Source: Lachnospiraceae bacterium (GTDB taxonomy: Bacteria; Bacillota; Clostridia; Lachnospirales; Lachnospiraceae). From it: a DNA stretch of 43,800 nt. Under the pieces are notes generated by a model. It ran no database searches and had not been told where the DNA came from. It saw only the letters and a list, made by a program, of their open reading frames with translations. The DNA lies in contig SVFB01000049.1 in the NCBI GenBank assembly GCA_015057085.1, forward strand, positions 1 to 43,800, written 5' to 3'. A program made the position numbers and the translations under genes. This document shows, one piece after another, positions 17,873-25,963 of the stretch (its first letter is position 1; each line of letters opens with the position of its first letter).

Positions 17873-18832
17873 ATGATTAGAAAAACAAAGGGAAACAGCG
17901 ATTTTGAACAAAAAAATCTCCTTTTGAAAGAACAACTTGCGGCTATTCAGAAAAATGCAGGCGACCTTGCAAAATGCCTCGAAACAATAGAGCAAAAGTC
18001 ACAGGACGTCAGTGACGCATCTGACTCACTTCAGGCTCTGATGGAGGGGGCATATGAACAGATTTTGACCATGTCAGACGATGTTGCAAACATAAGTAAT
18101 GTCATGGAAGAGATGAAGGACTCTTTTGTGGATATGAGCGAAGAGTCTAAAGATGGCGCGGACTATGCCGAAAACTCCAACAAGGATGCCTATGAGATTA
18201 TGATGAATTCAGAGCGGGAGCGCCAGGAAGTTGAAGCCATGGCTGCAACCGTTGAACGAAATATGAATGAGAAAATCGAGGAATCCCGTAAAGCAGAGTT
18301 AATATTAAATCTAACTTCAAATATTATCGAGATTTCGGATCAGACAAATCTATTGGCTTTGAATGCTTCCATTGAGGCGGCACATGCAGGAGAAGAGGGA
18401 CGTGGGTTTGCTGTTGTGGCAGAAGAGATTAAGAAGCTGGCGGCAAGCTCCAGCGAAACAGCCTCTCAAATCAAAGATATTTCAAATATCGTATTGGATG
18501 CAGTTTCCGGTTTGGCAGAAGAAGCGAAGAACGTGTTGGAATTTATGAAGGATAAAACAGTCGGCAGTTATAATCAGCTGGTTGAAGTCGGTAGAAAATA
18601 TCAGAACGATTCTAAGATTATGTTCGATAAGATGCAGGATTTCTCATTCATCGCGCAGAATCTTACAGACCAGGTTAAAATATCCACCAGTTCGATTGAT
18701 ACCCTAAAGAATTCTGCAGAAGAATCCGCAGAAGGCATGAGAGACTTTATTGAAAATATAAAACAGATCTCAGAAATGGCTTCCGAGATCTGCAATCATT
18801 GCGATGAAAATGTGGACGAAACGAGAGATTAA
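17873..18832 (+). CDS. Soluble methyl-accepting chemotaxis protein
   Basis: A 319-residue receptor-like protein with no transmembrane helix. It begins with a charged coiled coil and contains the conserved signalling tip at about residues 150-190. The tip reads [20 protein letters not shown], then [20 protein letters not shown]. The coiled coil then continues to the C-terminus. No PAS, GAF, globin or CZB-type sensor was recognised, although the C-terminal [13 protein letters not shown] segment has a Cys-His cluster that might bind a metal. It would work in the cytoplasm with CheA/CheW or as a receptor for an internal signal. AAGGAG precedes the ATG. Its stop codon overlaps by 4 bp with the end of the convergent LacI-like gene. 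Confidence 0.9.
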
Positions 18833-19975: not shown

Positions 19976-20152
19976 ATGAAAGAAATATTTCAGGAATATG
20001 GTGGGATTTTAATTACGATTACAGCAATTTTGACTGTGATCGCAGTGATTGTAGTAGTTGTTGGACAAGGAGATTCAGGAGTGGTGGGAAAAGCATTTTC
20101 AAACCTGATTTCAAAGTTTATCGAGTCGGCAAATACCGCCGGCGGCATGTGA
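19976..20152 (+). CDS. Flp-pilin-like microprotein 1 (58 aa)
   Basis: A 58-residue protein starting MKEIFQEYGGILI, with Glu7-Tyr8-Gly9 followed by a hydrophobic helix to about residue 30 and a short amphipathic tail. Flp pilins of Tad systems are cleaved so that the mature chain starts a few residues before a Glu-Tyr pair. This protein looks like such a mature chain with no leader peptide. It precedes the secretion ATPase by 11 bp and has AAGGAGAAG upstream. Two more proteins with the same E7-Y8-G9 pattern lie downstream in the operon. By analogy it may be a fibre subunit or an inner-membrane platform component. The family assignment rests on pattern and context only. Confidence 0.65.
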   Translation: MKEIFQEYGGILITITAILTVIAVIVVVVGQGDSGVVGKAFSNLISKFIESANTAGGM

Positions 20153-20163
20153 TGGAGTAGAAA

Positions 20164-21219
20164 ATGGAGCTTGGTAAAACCTACTTTGGACCTTTATGGC
20201 GCTTTGTGGAAGCGGAGGATGTGACAGATATCGATTACAACGGAAAAGAAATCTGGCTTACGAATATTTTCAATGAACGATATCGTGCAAAGGATAGTTT
20301 TGTGAAGCAGTATATGACACCTGCATTTGTGGAGCAGTTTACCAATCGTATTGCAAATGTGATATCACAGCAATTTAACAAGCGAAATCCTGTGCTCGAA
20401 GCAGAAACTCCGGAATTGCGTGTGACAATTTTACATGAGTCTGTGGCACGAACAGGGCGTACCATCAGCATTCGAAAGACGCCTCCTGTGGTACGAATTA
20501 CGGAGGAATCGGCATTGCGCAATCACTATTGTTCCAAAGAGGTGCTAAATCTGCTTTTGAATCTTGTTCAAGCGAAGTTTAATATGGTTTTTTGCGGGAT
20601 GCCGGGAGTTGGAAAAACAGAGTGCGTAAAATTCTTGTCTGGGTTTATTCCGCCGGAGGAGCGGGTGATTACGATCGAGGATACACTGGAAATTCGTTTT
20701 AGCAAGACCAATCCTCAGAATGATTGTGTAGAAATGAAAGTGAGCGAAGATACTTTCACCTATGCAAATGCAATTAAGTCCTCCCTCCGATTAAATCCAA
20801 AGTGGATCATGCTTTCAGAATCACGTGGTGCAGAAGTGAAATATCTTTTGGAGAGTTGGTCCACCGGGGTTTGCGGAATGACAACTTTGCATACGGATGA
20901 CGTGCGCAATATCCCGGATCGCATTTTGAGTATGTTGGAAAATCGAGTGGATGCAGATCGGTTGGAAAATGATATTTACGAATCGGTGGATGTGGGAATC
21001 TTAATTCGCAAAAAGAAAAGTACAAGGGGAGAGGTCTATCGGTATATTGATCAGATATCCTTCTTTTATCGAGAAAACAGTGAAAATAAAATCTCGATGA
21101 TATTAAATCACGGCGAATTGACAGGCGAATTTCCGGCTGCTGTTTTAGACCGTTTGTCGCTACATGGTATCACAGATCCCTTTGAAAGAATAAGGGAAGA
21201 GAAGGAGGCATGGGCATGA
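20164..21219 (+). CDS. Tad/CpaF-type secretion ATPase
   Basis: A 351-residue hexameric-type ATPase of the GspE/VirB11 superfamily, closest in layout to TadA/CpaF. It would power pilus assembly or secretion from the cytoplasmic face. The N-terminal domain contains the SVARTGRTISIRK segment. Walker A is GMPGVGKTE with Lys151. The Asp box is ITIEDTLEIRF. Walker B reads KWIMLSESRGAEV, where most CpaF proteins have a Gly-Glu-x-Arg-Gly; the catalytic-position Glu is kept. The His box is CGMTTLHTDD. It is shorter than typical CpaF (over 400 residues) and lacks part of the N-terminal region. GGAG precedes the ATG. Its stop codon overlaps the next start by ATGA, which predicts translational coupling. 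Confidence 0.85.
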   Translation: MELGKTYFGPLWRFVEAEDVTDIDYNGKEIWLTNIFNERYRAKDSFVKQYMTPAFVEQFTNRIANVISQQFNKRNPVLEAETPELRVTILHESVARTGRTISIRKTPPVVRITEESALRNHYCSKEVLNLLLNLVQAKFNMVFCGMPGVGKTECVKFLSGFIPPEERVITIEDTLEIRFSKTNPQNDCVEMKVSEDTFTYANAIKSSLRLNPKWIMLSESRGAEVKYLLESWSTGVCGMTTLHTDDVRNIPDRILSMLENRVDADRLENDIYESVDVGILIRKKKSTRGEVYRYIDQISFFYRENSENKISMILNHGELTGEFPAAVLDRLSLHGITDPFERIREEKEAWA

Positions 21220-22607
21220 GCTATTTATGTATGGGAATCGTAGTGTATTTATTGCATTTGATTTTAAAGTTGAATTGGATTGCCACAGGAATCGCCCTTC
21301 TTTCCGGTGTTGCATTTTTATTGCAATTAAAAAAGAGACAGCAGGCGGCAAATATCATGAAGAATCGTTTTCAGGAAACCTGTATTTATTTAGAAATGAT
21401 GATGAATGCTTTTGCTAGGGAAGGGAAAATCGAAGCTGCACTTTCTGACGTATTGGCCTCTGTTGCATCAGGACATTTGAAAGACGTCTTGCAGCACGCA
21501 TATGATCATGTTTCGCTCACCTTCGATGAATCAGAGGTGATGAAGGATGCCTTGCAAATCATTGAGACGGAATACGATTGCAAGCGTGTGAGTGCATTGC
21601 ATCAGTTTATGCTTCATGTGGAATATTTTGGCGGAGATCGAAGTGATGCAATTGAGTTGATGGAGAAGGATGAAGCTCGCTGGAAGCGCAGGCTCGAAGA
21701 ACATCAAAATGACAGGCATAAAGATTTTCGGGAGATTGTGCTCTCTGTTGCAGTTTCAATCATCATCTGTGGTTGTATTATGTATCTTCCGGTGATGGAT
21801 ATTGATATCAGTCAAAAGGTGATTACGCAAGTGTTAAGCGTAGTATTGATTATGCTCGATGAGTTGATTGTGCTGCGTGGAATGAAATACTTAAATGTTG
21901 ATTGGATAAAATTGGACAGCTTTTGGAACGAAAATGATACCAGAAAATCCATGGAGGATTATCGTGCCTTTGATGAAAGAAGAGAAGGTAGGAGAGCAAT
22001 GTTTTATGCGCTTCCTGCAATTGTTGCAACGGTAGCTTTGTTTGTTTTGAGACACAGATGGCTTGGTGCTTTGGGATTGGGAATTAGTTTTATTTGCTTA
22101 AACAGTCACAGAATCGGTCATCGTCTGAAGGAAAAGAATTTATTAAAAGAAATCCGCAGTGCGTTTCCTGTATGGTTGGTGGATTTGGTGTTGCTCTTGC
22201 AAACCGAAAATGTCCAAAATGCAATTCAAAAGTCAAGAGAGCAGGCCCCTCGTGTGCTGTCCATGGACCTGGAACGATTGGAAGATGAACTGGTGATGAA
22301 TCCGGAGTCCTCAGGTCCTTATCATAAGTTCTTAAAAGAATTTGAGTTGCCGCAGGTGCGCACTGCGATGAGTATGCTATATGCACTTTCCATGGGAACT
22401 GCAAAAGATGGTGGCACACAGTTGATGGAGTTGGTCAACAGCAACTTTTATCTGCTGGATGAAGCAGAAAAAGTGCGCTTAAAGGATAAGAGCAGCGGCA
22501 TGTATCTTTTGTTTCTTGCGCCGGTTTTGACGGCCTCATTTAAATTGGTGGTGGACATGGCGATGTTTATGATCTCTTTTATGGGCTCATCTGCAGTCAG
22601 TTTTTAG
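21216..22607 (+). CDS. Tad platform membrane protein, TadB-TadC-like fusion
   Basis: A 463-residue membrane protein with two copies of the type II secretion F-type arrangement. Helices at the N-terminus precede a first cytoplasmic helical module (about residues 45-160, RFQETCIYLEMMMNAFAREG). Helices at about 170-215 and 260-300 follow, then a second module (about 310-420, EIRSAFPVWLVDLVLLLQTE) and a C-terminal hydrophobic stretch. Tad systems normally split these modules between TadB and TadC. Start: AAGGAGG at 21202-21208 is 7 bases before ATG 21216 but only 1 base before ATG 21210, so the second ATG is chosen. That ATG overlaps the ATPase stop as ATGA. Confidence 0.75.
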   Translation: MSYLCMGIVVYLLHLILKLNWIATGIALLSGVAFLLQLKKRQQAANIMKNRFQETCIYLEMMMNAFAREGKIEAALSDVLASVASGHLKDVLQHAYDHVSLTFDESEVMKDALQIIETEYDCKRVSALHQFMLHVEYFGGDRSDAIELMEKDEARWKRRLEEHQNDRHKDFREIVLSVAVSIIICGCIMYLPVMDIDISQKVITQVLSVVLIMLDELIVLRGMKYLNVDWIKLDSFWNENDTRKSMEDYRAFDERREGRRAMFYALPAIVATVALFVLRHRWLGALGLGISFICLNSHRIGHRLKEKNLLKEIRSAFPVWLVDLVLLLQTENVQNAIQKSREQAPRVLSMDLERLEDELVMNPESSGPYHKFLKEFELPQVRTAMSMLYALSMGTAKDGGTQLMELVNSNFYLLDEAEKVRLKDKSSGMYLLFLAPVLTASFKLVVDMAMFMISFMGSSAVSF

Positions 22608-22627
22608 TTCAAGCGGAGGAAGATAAA

Positions 22628-23005
22628 ATGAATCAAATCATCAAATCATTTCTTGGTGTGTTTTTGATCTTGTTTATGTGTGCCAGCAGCATCGCTATCT
22701 TTACGATGTTTTTGACTGTGTTGCAAGCACAGAATGCACAGGCAGAAATCGTACGGGAATTAGAAGATAGTAATTATTATCCGTCTGTGACGAAAGCATG
22801 CTTTACCCGTGCAGAAGAAGCCGGATATGATCTTAAGATTGCTGTGATTCGCCATGGAGCAGAAGCTGAGGAATGGTTATGTGCGGCGGATGTTCCGGCA
22901 CAGGCTGAGGAATGCGATTGTGTTCGTGTGAGCTTGGAATTTCCCATTCGCATTGCGCTGTTTCAAATCGGAGAGGTTCATTCTCTACAGGCATATGCAT
23001 ATTAG
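22628..23005 (+). CDS. TadE/TadF-like pseudopilin (125 aa)
   Basis: A 125-residue protein with one N-terminal hydrophobic helix (about residues 8-32), then a soluble domain with four cysteines. The helix leads into an AQNAQAEIVRELEDSNYYP segment like the amphipathic continuation in pseudopilins. Size, topology and position next to the platform protein suggest a TadE/TadF-type minor pilin. A processing site of the usual Gly-x-x-x-x-Glu type is not obvious. GGAGGA precedes ATG 22628, 20 bp after the platform gene. The cysteines may form disulfides outside the membrane. Assignment is by layout, not by recognised sequence. Confidence 0.55.
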   Translation: MNQIIKSFLGVFLILFMCASSIAIFTMFLTVLQAQNAQAEIVRELEDSNYYPSVTKACFTRAEEAGYDLKIAVIRHGAEAEEWLCAADVPAQAEECDCVRVSLEFPIRIALFQIGEVHSLQAYAY

Positions 23006-23021
23006 GAATAGGAGCAACAGT

Positions 23022-23120
23022 ATGTATCAAATCATGGAAGAATACGGAATCAGTATTATTTTGATCTTGATGGGGGCAGCAGCAATTCGAATGCTGTGTC
23101 TCATTGGAACTATCATCTAA
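23022..23120 (+). CDS. Flp-pilin-like microprotein 2 (32 aa)
   Basis: A 32-residue frame beginning MYQIMEEYGISIILIL, with Glu7-Tyr8-Gly9 at exactly the same positions as in the proteins at 19976 and 23134. Nearly the whole remaining chain is hydrophobic. AGGAG lies about 8 bases upstream, and the gene is tightly packed (16 bp after the previous stop, 13 bp before the next start). The shared N-terminal pattern in three consecutive tiny frames, each with its own ribosome site, is the main reason to believe it is expressed. Likely a membrane-embedded pilin-like subunit. Confidence 0.6.
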   Translation: MYQIMEEYGISIILILMGAAAIRMLCLIGTII

Positions 23121-23133
23121 GGAGTGAAGGCAC

Positions 23134-23280
23134 ATGAAAGATATTTTAATTGAATATGGTGGCGCAATCATTGGAATTGTAGGCGCGATCGGCATGCTTT
23201 GGGTACTTCGAGTGCCATTGTTTTCGCCGGATGGGTTGCTGGCTCAATTGGTTCGCTTTTGGCAGACTAGCGCTTGTTGA
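23134..23280 (+). CDS. Flp-pilin-like microprotein 3 (48 aa)
   Basis: A 48-residue protein beginning MKDILIEYGGAIIGIVG. It has the Glu7-Tyr8-Gly9-Gly10 pattern identical to microprotein 1, a hydrophobic helix to about residue 30 and a short amphipathic tail ending in Cys. The tail (LLAQLVRFWQTSA) resembles in character the tail of microprotein 1 (VGKAFSNLISKFIESA). AAGGAGTGAAGG lies directly upstream. Probably a paralogue of the 58-residue protein at the head of the operon. Confidence 0.62.
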   Translation: MKDILIEYGGAIIGIVGAIGMLWVLRVPLFSPDGLLAQLVRFWQTSAC

Positions 23281-23291
23281 AAGGGGAAAGT

Positions 23292-23795
23292 ATGAAGGTA
23301 ATAGTATCACAATACGGAAGAGCTTTTGTGGCAATTATGATTGCAGGCATTATCTTGATGGCGATGGGGGGAATTCGCTCCGGAGTAGAATTGGCAAAAC
23401 TCTATCACGGAAGTAATGCTGTATTTACTGAGACTGATGCTTTTTTGAAGTTTCGCAGCAGAGAAGGTATCACGGCATCATATTTGACCGACTGTCCAAT
23501 TGTAGCAAAGGAAAAAGTGGTGATTGCGAATCATTTTGCAGGCAAAAATTCTCTTGGTGAGACAGTGCAATTGAATTTGATTTATGTGGAGTCTGATTCC
23601 GGACAGACCATTGGGCCGCAGGAAGGAATCACAGGTCAATGGGTGGAAATAGAAAATCCCGGAGTCTACACCTTTTATTTTGAAGGAACCGATGCAAATG
23701 GCAATATATGTGAAATTCATATTGCAGTCCCTGTTCAGAGTCAATTGCCGCAGGAGGCAGCAATTAGCAGGCGGCCGACGGAGGAATGCATATGA
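23292..23795 (+). CDS. Pilin-like N-terminus fused to an extracellular domain
   Basis: A 167-residue protein. It starts MKVIVSQYGRAFVAIMIAG, so Gln7-Tyr8-Gly9 sits where the three microproteins have Glu7-Tyr8-Gly9, followed by a single transmembrane helix to about residue 30. The rest is predicted beta-rich and exported, with an Ig-like ending (VYTFYFEGTDANGNICEIHI). It could be a minor pilin or tip subunit with a functional head. Start: ATG 23292 with AAGGGGAAAG upstream; a TTG at 23274 would overlap the previous gene and lacks support. Its stop overlaps the next start as ATGA. Confidence 0.6.
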   Translation: MKVIVSQYGRAFVAIMIAGIILMAMGGIRSGVELAKLYHGSNAVFTETDAFLKFRSREGITASYLTDCPIVAKEKVVIANHFAGKNSLGETVQLNLIYVESDSGQTIGPQEGITGQWVEIENPGVYTFYFEGTDANGNICEIHIAVPVQSQLPQEAAISRRPTEECI

Positions 23796-24154
23796 AGAAT
23801 GTTATTATCGGAATTACCGGCGGTTTTATCCTATTGTACACAGTCGTGATTTGCTTATCGATATATGGCTCTGTTTCTCGCTCAAACGAGATGGAACATG
23901 GGCTTTCACGCTCGGTGGAGACGGTGCTTCTGCGCTCGTATCAGACTTCTACCAGTCATTCAGAGGTGTTAACTCAGGTAGAACAAGAATTGCAACAATG
24001 GATTGCTTCAGAATCTGAAGTGGAAATCACCTTGAAAGTATGCGATTTGCAAAAGGGGATTTTGTCTGTGGAAGTAATAGAGCAATATCGCACACCCTTT
24101 GGTGCCGTGCGTAAGAAGCAATACGAAAAAACAGCCATCATAGAGACGGCATAG
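23792..24154 (+). CDS. TadE/TadF-like pseudopilin, second copy (120 aa)
   Basis: A 120-residue protein with an N-terminal hydrophobic helix (residues 5-27) followed by a soluble alpha/beta region (SRSVETVLLRSYQTS, then a Gln/Glu-rich helix and ITLKVCDLQKGILSVEVIEQ). The topology is like the 125-residue protein at 22628, and both resemble TadE/TadF minor pilins. Start: GGAGG at 23780-23784 is 7 bases before ATG 23792, so this is preferred over ATG 23786, which lies only 1 base after it. The ATGA overlap with the preceding gene indicates coupling. Confidence 0.55.
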   Translation: MKNVIIGITGGFILLYTVVICLSIYGSVSRSNEMEHGLSRSVETVLLRSYQTSTSHSEVLTQVEQELQQWIASESEVEITLKVCDLQKGILSVEVIEQYRTPFGAVRKKQYEKTAIIETA

Positions 24155-24196
24155 AGCGAGACTTGAACCCAAAAAAATAGAATTGGAGGGAAAATT

Positions 24197-25963
24197 ATAA
24201 AAAAATATTGGAAAAAAATTTTTATCATTCTTGCTGCACTCGTACTTTGCAAAGGCCTTTCGACCACTGAGTCTGTGCGTGCAGATTATACGGGGCAGGC
24301 GCATGAATTTTATGAAAAATACGGTTCAGAGACCGTATTTTTCCCGACCGGTAAAACAGATGGGAAAATATATTTTGCAAGCCGTGGAGCTGCTGCTTCC
24401 AGCGGGACCAAATATAAGACCATCGGTTGGAAGATGGTGATCAGCAATACGTCCGGAACGGTGATGCAAAATTTGTATTTTAAGTTGGGCGGATCTTATT
24501 TGACACTGTCAAATTCCTCAAGAAAGGATGGTTATGTTTATAATTTATATAGTGTCAAACTTTCTACAATTTTATCCCGATTGAACCAAAAGGCTCTCGA
24601 ACAGTTTCAAAAGGGAAGTGCGATATTAAGATTAAATGCTTGTATGGTGGTCTCTCGAAATGGTGTTTTGTCCGGAAGTATGACTGATTCGGGACCTTCC
24701 GGAGGCCAGGTTTATACCACTTATGCCGGAATTGTATCAGCGGCAGATTGGTCATCAAGTTCTGTTGAGACTTTGAAGTCTTATTTCGGAAAAGAAGTGA
24801 CCGGATTGTTTTTTAAAGTAAAAGTTGGAAAAGGCAAAGGAATCGATGAAGTCTCGGGAGCCGGGACCTATGTGTATGGCACGAAAGTGACAATCAAGGC
24901 TACCTGCGCAACCGGATATGTGTTCTCTAAATGGACAGGGCCATCGACACAGACGAAACAATCTTATTCTTTTTACGTAAATCAAAACTGTAGCTGGATT
25001 GCATATGCCACGCCAATGAAGATTACTGTGACATATTATCGCAATCATTCCAATACGGATACTACGCGAAAAGCAGATACATTTGTCTATGCAAAAACCG
25101 GTCAAAAGTTGCTGGCTCCATCCTGGACAAAGACCGGATATACCTTGTCCGGATGGGCGCTTGAACGGGATTCAAACAAAGCAAATTACAGTCTGAATGC
25201 AGAAGTGAAATCATCATGGATTGTAAAGTATTATGAGGCCGTCAATCTCTATGCGGTATGGAAGCCGAATACATATACCCTTCGATTTTTTGGTCCCTCG
25301 AAGGATGGAAAAACGCAGGTGATTTGTTCGACAATCAAACTGGTTTGGGGAGATACATTTGTATTTCCAAAATCTCCGGGCGAACAGAATGATTTTGCAG
25401 GATGGCGGTGTGATTCAGGAAAGACATATTCGGCCGGAACTCAGGAAAGCGTGAAAAATATAGCCACAGGAGCAGGCGTTGCCAATACAAATCAGGCGGT
25501 AATTGATTTCTATGCCCTATGGGATTCGAAGCCCTTGATAGAAGCTGAGAATTTATATTTTCCTTTGGAAGATGCGCAATCCGGAAAGTTGACAGAAACT
25601 TATTTGGCGACTTATTTCCGCGCAACGGATAAACAAGACGGAGTGATTTCTTATGGGATTCATGGAACGAATCGGTTTGTCATCGAAAATTATAAGCAGT
25701 TGAACTTAAAAAAGATGAAGGATCGTGATGTTGCAGAATTGGTCCTATATGCAAAGGACAGTGATGGGAATGAAGTGCGCAAGAATATAACGCTTACAGT
25801 GGTGGATACTGCTATGGAGACACCCGAAAAAGTAACGGTACGTTTTGTGGATGGCAGATTCTCGCAGGAGGATTATTATTTGCCGGCCGATTCAAAGTGG
25901 CTAAATCATCCGGATTATCGCAGTTTGCTGGAGACGGCTACAAAAAAAGAGGAAATACCATGA
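24197..25963 (+). CDS. Secreted InlB-repeat / Ig-like protein with an ATA start
   Basis: A 588-residue exported protein, probably the adhesin or tip protein of the pilus operon. The frame opens with Lys-rich residues, a hydrophobic core (IFIILAALVL) and a likely signal-peptidase site after VRA near residue 29. A unique region (about 30-190) is followed by an InlB-type repeat (about 190-280), two further repeats with YTLSGWA and NDFAGWR motifs ending in LYAVW and FYALW (about 280-430), and a C-terminal Ig-like domain. No LPXTG anchor is present. The start codon is unusual: GGAGGG at 24185-24190 points to ATA 24197 (or ATT 24194). No ATG, GTG or TTG lies in frame before GTG 24275, which would remove the signal peptide. 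Confidence 0.7.
   Translation: MKKYWKKIFIILAALVLCKGLSTTESVRADYTGQAHEFYEKYGSETVFFPTGKTDGKIYFASRGAAASSGTKYKTIGWKMVISNTSGTVMQNLYFKLGGSYLTLSNSSRKDGYVYNLYSVKLSTILSRLNQKALEQFQKGSAILRLNACMVVSRNGVLSGSMTDSGPSGGQVYTTYAGIVSAADWSSSSVETLKSYFGKEVTGLFFKVKVGKGKGIDEVSGAGTYVYGTKVTIKATCATGYVFSKWTGPSTQTKQSYSFYVNQNCSWIAYATPMKITVTYYRNHSNTDTTRKADTFVYAKTGQKLLAPSWTKTGYTLSGWALERDSNKANYSLNAEVKSSWIVKYYEAVNLYAVWKPNTYTLRFFGPSKDGKTQVICSTIKLVWGDTFVFPKSPGEQNDFAGWRCDSGKTYSAGTQESVKNIATGAGVANTNQAVIDFYALWDSKPLIEAENLYFPLEDAQSGKLTETYLATYFRATDKQDGVISYGIHGTNRFVIENYKQLNLKKMKDRDVAELVLYAKDSDGNEVRKNITLTVVDTAMETPEKVTVRFVDGRFSQEDYYLPADSKWLNHPDYRSLLETATKKEEIP

Follow-up and report, generated by a model that had tools for sequence, protein, structure and literature searches.

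A conserved Tad-like operon of Lachnospiraceae encodes miniature pilin-like proteins with a nine-residue leader-like segment

The window analyzed here, 43,800 nt of DNA from a Lachnospiraceae bacterium, is a whole contig of a 2.79-Mb genome. It carries an operon for a CpaF-like ATPase, a platform protein with both halves in one chain and four pilin-like proteins (P1 to P4, three of them tiny), together with two small related proteins (E1 and E2) and a large protein, S. This set of genes is real and represents a conserved variant of the Tad-like type, and no earlier description of it was found in the open-access literature searched by titles and abstract openings. The P proteins appear to open with a nine-residue leader-like segment, M-x-x-phi-phi-x-x-Y-G, in which Gly9 would be residue -1. 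The reading favored here, to which about half of our confidence goes, is that of a Tad-like type IV filament machine that stands alone on the chromosome and whose nine-residue leader is probably removed. The cut would probably be made by an A24 prepilin peptidase whose gene lies elsewhere in the genome, and the ATPase and the fused platform would then assemble the helices into a filament or pseudopilus acting at the cell surface. The main subunit is probably P1 (58 aa), with P2, P3 and P4 as related minor subunits. P4 would display an Ig-like domain outside the cell, E1 and E2 would be TadE-like, and S would be a secreted surface protein made with the machine. What emerges is a family of Lachnospiraceae machines without a peptidase of their own, in which subunits may be as small as 32 residues and the leader-like segment hardly varies in length.

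Conservation of the operon

The original prediction, made from the sequence of the window, had placed a CpaF-like ATPase, a fused platform and pilin-like microproteins in one operon and had called for a search of related genomes. That search recovered the same operon widely. An ATPase match at E ≤ 1e-60 was obtained in 54 of the 60 genomes searched from the genus, the source genome included, and at E ≤ 1e-40 in 36 of 299 genomes (35 of 298 genera) in an even sample of Lachnospiraceae. The genus set comprises 42 loci (the window, 40 fetched loci and L027), which by ATPase identity fall into three clades, A with 25 loci, B with 13 and C with 4; clade C lies outside the counts given below for clades A and B. 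The other-genus set comprises 35 loci from 33 genomes, or 33 of the 34 operon genomes outside the genus (G144 was not taken).

The order P1-ATPase-platform-E1-P2-P3-P4-E2 recurs in the genus, as judged from gene maps of part of the loci, and is found in most of the 35 other-genus loci, with losses and shuffles. P1 was present in all 38 clade A and B loci, and one locus (L115) has two tandem P1 copies of identical 56-aa sequence. Best-model matches to E1 were found in 41 of the 42 genus loci and to E2 in 39, and the E1 and E2 models match each other. The machine, which is carried by gut-type bacteria, is compact, widespread and little-studied.

N-terminal motif and start codons of the P proteins

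Three tiny proteins of 58, 32 and 48 residues (P1 to P3), each with Glu7-Tyr8-Gly9 followed by a hydrophobic helix, had been reported from the window and are indeed present there. A fourth had been missed; this is P4 (167 aa), which carries Gln7-Tyr8-Gly9. Motif counts were made on 136 P proteins from the 38 loci of clades A and B. Gly stands at residue 9 in 122, Ala in 7 and Ser in 2 (131 of 136 together), and Tyr or Phe at residue 8 in 126. At residue 7, Glu is found in 68 and one of Glu, Gln and His in 113, and the exact EYG triplet occurs in 56. The expected conservation of EYG in orthologues holds for residues 8 and 9 but not for Glu7, and in the four clade C loci neither the P1-slot proteins nor the P4 proteins carry the triplet.

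The start codon lies exactly eight codons ahead of the small residue in 131 of 136 proteins in the genus and in 103 of 115 in other genera, as counted with a motif finder that accepts only some residues and favors hydrophobic sequence after them. The latter proteins come from 116 P fragments in 33 of the 35 loci, one fragment being without the motif. The segment is nearly fixed in length in four related subunits and about 30 genera. P1 to P4, E1 and E2 were left unnamed by Pfam and NCBIfam searches, and P1 of the window matched no Pfam family up to E 1 and gave one meaningless NCBIfam row (0.025). These proteins are tiny, have a single helix and are named by no family library, as chance motifs in look-alike short hydrophobic open reading frames would be, but the conservation of place, start codon and motif in 38 genus loci and 33 of 35 other-genus loci refutes that explanation and leaves it a negligible probability.

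Longer leaders were sought upstream. No upstream in-frame start exists for 73 of the 136 proteins, and one that would add at least five residues exists for 48. Among those 48, a ribosome-site run of at least four was found in only four, a figure that is partly set by choice because the starts themselves had been picked for their ribosome-site score and for how close they lay to the model match. In the window, P1 has a stop six codons upstream with no start between, and P3 has a stop two codons upstream. TTG codons lie five and six codons upstream of P4; upstream of P2 there is an in-frame ATG at nine codons, with a weak ribosome site (run of three), and a TTG at 23. A longer leader is unlikely as a general rule, and P2 of the window keeps a candidate upstream ATG. 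The earlier description of the proteins as leaderless is correct to the extent that the genes do not generally encode a long leader, but a nine-residue leader-like segment is probably present.

Residue 9 as the likely -1 position

According to the part of the literature consulted, Flp pilins have Glu at +5 and Tyr at +6 after cleavage (PMC3244431), and the leaders of type IV prepilins end in Gly or Ala and vary in length, with Glu5 being frequent but not universal (PMC10191384). Residues along the helix were counted in 135 genus copies, for which starts were re-chosen where another in-frame start gave Gly, Ala or Ser at residue 9 and one clade B P2 was dropped, and in 103 copies from other genera, after exclusion of the 12 of 115 that have no start at the expected place. 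Within positions 11 to 22, acidic residues occur only at position 14, in 16 of 238 copies, of which 11 are among the 135 of the genus and 5 among the 103 of other genera. Polar residues fill position 14 in 83 of the 238 copies and each other position of this range in 3 to 37. The copies with Glu or Asp at 14 are P2, P3 and P4 proteins of clade A, clade B and five other-genus loci. Because they are spread over three proteins and across clades and genera, this residue does not represent one inherited change.

Residues 1 to 9 match the position of a leader, since residue 9 obeys the -1 rule and the acidic residue 14 falls at +5 from it. Residue 9 is thus probably -1 and residue 14 probably +5, and Gly or Ala at -1 ahead of a hydrophobic stretch of about 20 residues is the signature of a class III prepilin. 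The original prediction had instead equated Glu7-Tyr8 with the Glu5-Tyr6 of Flp pilins and set Met1 about where the mature N-terminus would be. This register was rejected. It would place Met1 at -2 and require Glu7 to be kept, but Glu7 is found in only 68 of 136 proteins, while the small residue is at 9 and the acidic helix position is 14. P1 has Thr or Ala at +5 in 37 of 38 copies and Tyr at -2, and hence shows no Glu5-Tyr6 Flp signature.

Removal or retention of the nine-residue segment

Prepilins need processing by a peptidase before assembly, as set out in the consulted part of a published account (PMC10191384). No A24 (prepilin peptidase) match was found with Pfam or NCBIfam among the nine operon proteins, as the original prediction had held. 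The distant peptidase gene that it had suggested looking for was represented by two A24 matches in the same genome, both on another contig (C54). Sharing of a peptidase between systems has been described, with MSH loci lacking one of their own (PMC6668835, consulted in part). The lack of a peptidase nearby is a weak argument because A24 genes lie elsewhere in the genome and sharing is described. All 62 genomes of the genus examined and all 36 operon genomes gave A24 matches; with a background of 295 of 299 genomes in the family sample, this co-occurrence is uninformative.

Cleavage of the segment is given a somewhat better than even chance, and a number of observations weigh against it. The segment is nine residues long in 103 of 115 copies from other genera, where Flp1 leaders range from 11 to 28 residues and the modal length of 13 is found in 6 of 18 (Fisher 7e-7); in the genus, 25 of 30 Flp1 leaders are 13 long. 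The Flp1 set consists of 48 proteins found by pattern in the 61 loci read, and two in-genus starts (leaders of 5 and 9) look mis-chosen. Residues 2 to 9 are more conserved than residues 10 to 30 in all six P groups tested (0.90 versus 0.69 for P1 of clade A; 0.80 versus 0.73, 0.64 versus 0.28, 0.49 versus 0.25, 0.49 versus 0.20 and 0.48 versus 0.35 for the other five). The order is reversed in Flp1, with 0.57 for the leader versus 0.90 for the mature part in the genus and 0.39 versus 0.78 outside it. The near-fixed length and high conservation of residues 1 to 9 are unlike a disposable leader. Residue 10, the putative +1, is charged in 22 of 135 genus copies and 33 of 103 outside, where it is Pro in a further 7 of 103; by inspection, +1 of the 48 Flp1 proteins is only Val, Ile, Ala, Leu, Met or Phe. 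There is no Lys or Arg in residues 2 to 8 of 19 of 31 P2 copies, and counts of Lys and Arg on both sides of the helix gave no clear topology. The acidic +5 residue is present in only the 16 of 238 copies. The hhalign match between P1 and Flp1 is weak (probability 14%, equaled by 2 of 100 locally shuffled controls), and only 1 of 68 scanned P proteins touches Flp_Fap (E 0.041).

Much of this would be expected if the same machine kept residues 1 to 9, an alternative that is less likely than removal and to be regarded as doubtful. The segment would be an amphipathic, Gly-ended stretch lying on the cytoplasmic side or inside the assembly, and no peptidase would be needed. Near-fixed spacing and inverted conservation favor retention, as do the charged or Pro residue 10 and the many P2 proteins without positive charge. 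Two P genes from two other genera (L113 and L121) hold the spacing with ATA exactly at position 1, and the AlphaFold2 model of P4 (pLDDT 83.4) has a single unbroken helix from residue 2 to 29, both of which also fit this alternative. It is opposed by residue 9, which obeys the -1 rule in 131 of 136 proteins, by the acidic +5 counted from it and by A24 in all 36 operon genomes, though A24 is nearly as frequent in the family at large. The earlier claim that the subunits need no processing accordingly keeps a minority chance, with the length and conservation of residues 1 to 9 in its favor and the -1 and +5 rules against it. Its strongest form, a type IV filament that never processes its subunits and in which the retained nine-residue segment does the work of the freed N-terminus and Glu5, is a shade less probable again. 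If true, the prepilin peptidase would be dispensable for this system, a possible exception to the rule that prepilins must be processed, as that rule is worded in the consulted part of PMC10191384. Should the segment be cleaved, it would be an example of how short a class III leader can be and how little its length can vary, and a peptidase encoded outside the operon would be serving a second machine.

The ATPase, the platform and their relatives

The nearest solved structures to the ATPase are those of CpaF (1.9e-18; 8rkd, residues 8-260). In a tree of 48 rows, which holds few reference rows and several long branches and does not include one plasmid VirB11 stretch, the operon ATPases form a group of their own (27 rows, support 98/97), outside both the CpaF of the same genus and VirB11/TrbB. 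By this placement the operon is a Tad-like system with its own ATPase clade. The platform was modeled as two GspF-like domains in one chain, and the GspF-like fold of the first domain is supported by sequence or model.

A reading without any filament is improbable. The operon would then encode a small membrane device for export or contact that derives from the VirB11/T2SSF module of pLS20-type conjugation plasmids or shares that module, with the P proteins as membrane subunits. The ATPase of a Bacillus badius plasmid is a weak sister of the operon ATPases (94/70, long branch), and the best NCBIfam row for the ATPase is VirB11 (113.5 bits, under the cut-off of 250). The platform halves match two B. 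badius T2SSF proteins (92% and 75%, E 5e-7 and 2.6e-5), a better fit than with single TadB and TadC sequences of the source genome (5% or less by hhalign). The B. badius region holds T2SSF-ATPase-T2SSF, VirB4, VirD4, a pLS20_p028-family protein and a 55-aa protein (MGEHKGAITLSL...) that aligns weakly with P1 (probability 46%); no A24 match was found on this plasmid. A Peribacillus asahii plasmid has a module in which three near-identical tandem 64-aa one-helix proteins (MGEKSGSLFN..., L200:5696-6448) precede T2SSF-like and ATPase genes. No VirB4 or VirD4 is annotated in 17 kb of that region, and an hhalign comparison of the 64-aa proteins with P1 was without a real match (probability 2%).

Against an export device, none of the six neighboring genes tested is a transfer gene or VirD4, and CpaF is the nearest solved structure. 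The only TraG-D_C (VirD4-type C-terminal) match in the genome is partial and lies at a contig end (C82). None of the six named neighbors is VirB4, for which no model was searched. The operon is perhaps related to the module of pLS20-type conjugation plasmids. Such a relation, if true, would link a surface device encoded on the chromosome with DNA transfer; Gram-positive conjugation plasmids are said to lack pili in the consulted parts of two sources (PMC8092201, PMC11730352).

In favor of the filament reading, a Flp1_like protein (2.7e-10 and 1.3e-9) occupies the P2 slot of two clade B loci (L072 and L077), about 3000 bases past the ATPase start and with a second hydrophobic stretch in front. 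By inspection, neither protein has Glu at the +5 place.

Gene content and flanks

The genes of the operon are listed in Table 1. On one side it is flanked by a gene with a LacI-type sensor match and on the other by IMP dehydrogenase; the flanking genes are housekeeping genes. By size and place E1 is presumably TadE/DUF4320-like. No Pfam TadE match was found for E1 or E2, though their size and place agree with TadE. The sandwich of P4 resembles CBM, PKD and Ig-like sandwiches in Foldseek (best E 7.7e-4, TM about 0.3).

The signal-peptide frame of S contains no ATG, GTG or TTG start; an ATA lies 7 bases past GGAGG (24180-24200) and is probably the start codon. Together with the two ATA-led P genes described above, this indicates that ATA starts may be used in this operon. 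S matches adjoining the operon were found by tblastn in 20 of the 24 other loci of clade A, 6 of the 13 of clade B, 3 of the 4 of clade C and 8 of the 35 outside the genus, those of B, C and outside being weak. A gene for a soluble signaling protein of MCP type lies upstream of the operon in 13 of the 24 other loci of clade A and 2 of the 4 of clade C, and in none of the 13 of clade B or the 35 of other genera. This neighbor may point to chemosensory control of the operon.

Table 1. Features of the operon and its upstream neighbor in the window
Feature	Position	Strand	Description
P1	19976..20152	+	58 aa, MKEIFQEYGG... (MKEIFQEYGGILITITAIL...); putative major mini-pilin
ATPase	20164..21219	+	351 aa; CpaF/TadA/VirB11-type; PF00437 E 2.6e-20
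Platform protein	21216..22607	+	463 aa; two GspF-like domains in one chain; TadB+TadC equivalent
E1	22628..23005	+	125 aa; N-terminal helix and soluble part
P2	23022..23120	+	32 aa, MYQIMEEYGI...; mini-pilin-like
P3	23134..23280	+	48 aa, MKDILIEYGG...; mini-pilin-like
P4	23292..23795	+	167 aa, MKVIVSQYGR...; pilin-like helix (residues 2-29) and beta-sandwich; possible minor or tip subunit
E2	23786..24154	+	122 aa; relative of E1
S	24197..25963	+	~588 aa; secreted surface protein, InlB-type repeats; PF18998 E 1.1e-8
MCP-type protein	17873..18832	+	upstream neighbor; soluble signaling protein, possible regulator; PF00015 E 6.5e-26

Other loci in the genome

The cpaF gene of the ordinary Tad locus (L008:2046-2975 and L009:4001-4330; contig C54) is split at its NTGH stretch by an insert of ~13-14 kb with genes that look recombinase-like by eye. 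As long as the insert stays in place, the ordinary Tad pilus may be inactive. On contig C24 (L010:7255-11205), a PilT-like ATPase and a T2SSF protein (PF00482 1.8e-49) adjoin four small pseudopilin-like proteins, in which no prepilin site was seen by eye.

Comparison with known systems

The operon shares with the Tad (type IVc) pilus a CpaF-like ATPase, two GspF-type platform domains and tiny one-helix pilin-like subunits. It differs in that the platform halves are fused, the ATPase falls outside the CpaF group of the same genus, four P proteins are encoded, Glu5-Tyr6 is absent and no tadV match was found in the operon. The lack of a secretin, which had been presented as a distinguishing feature, is expected in a bacterium with one membrane, and monoderm versions of Tad do without one. 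Gram-positive tad-like loci, among them those of C. kluyveri, C. bolteae and C. sp. L2-50, also belong to Clostridia and, in the part of the source consulted (PMC3244431), likewise have no protein with an apparent prepilin signal. Compared by that description only, they hold tadV, tadZ and rcpC, unlike the operon here (PMC3244431).

MSH pili resemble the present system in that their locus is likewise without its own peptidase and may use that of another system, but they belong to a different type IV filament subfamily (PMC6668835, in the part consulted). The pLS20-type VirB11/T2SSF module, as found on B. badius pPM400, B. subtilis pBS72 and the P. asahii plasmid, is similar in having an ATPase flanked by T2SSF-type proteins. 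In B. badius and P. asahii it further includes a 55- or 64-aa one-helix protein starting MGEHKG or MGEKSG and E-like small proteins. However, this module is accompanied by VirB4 and VirD4 in B. badius and B. subtilis, its platform is unfused, and the N-terminal segment of its small proteins is 6 residues long, as compared to 9 in the P proteins.

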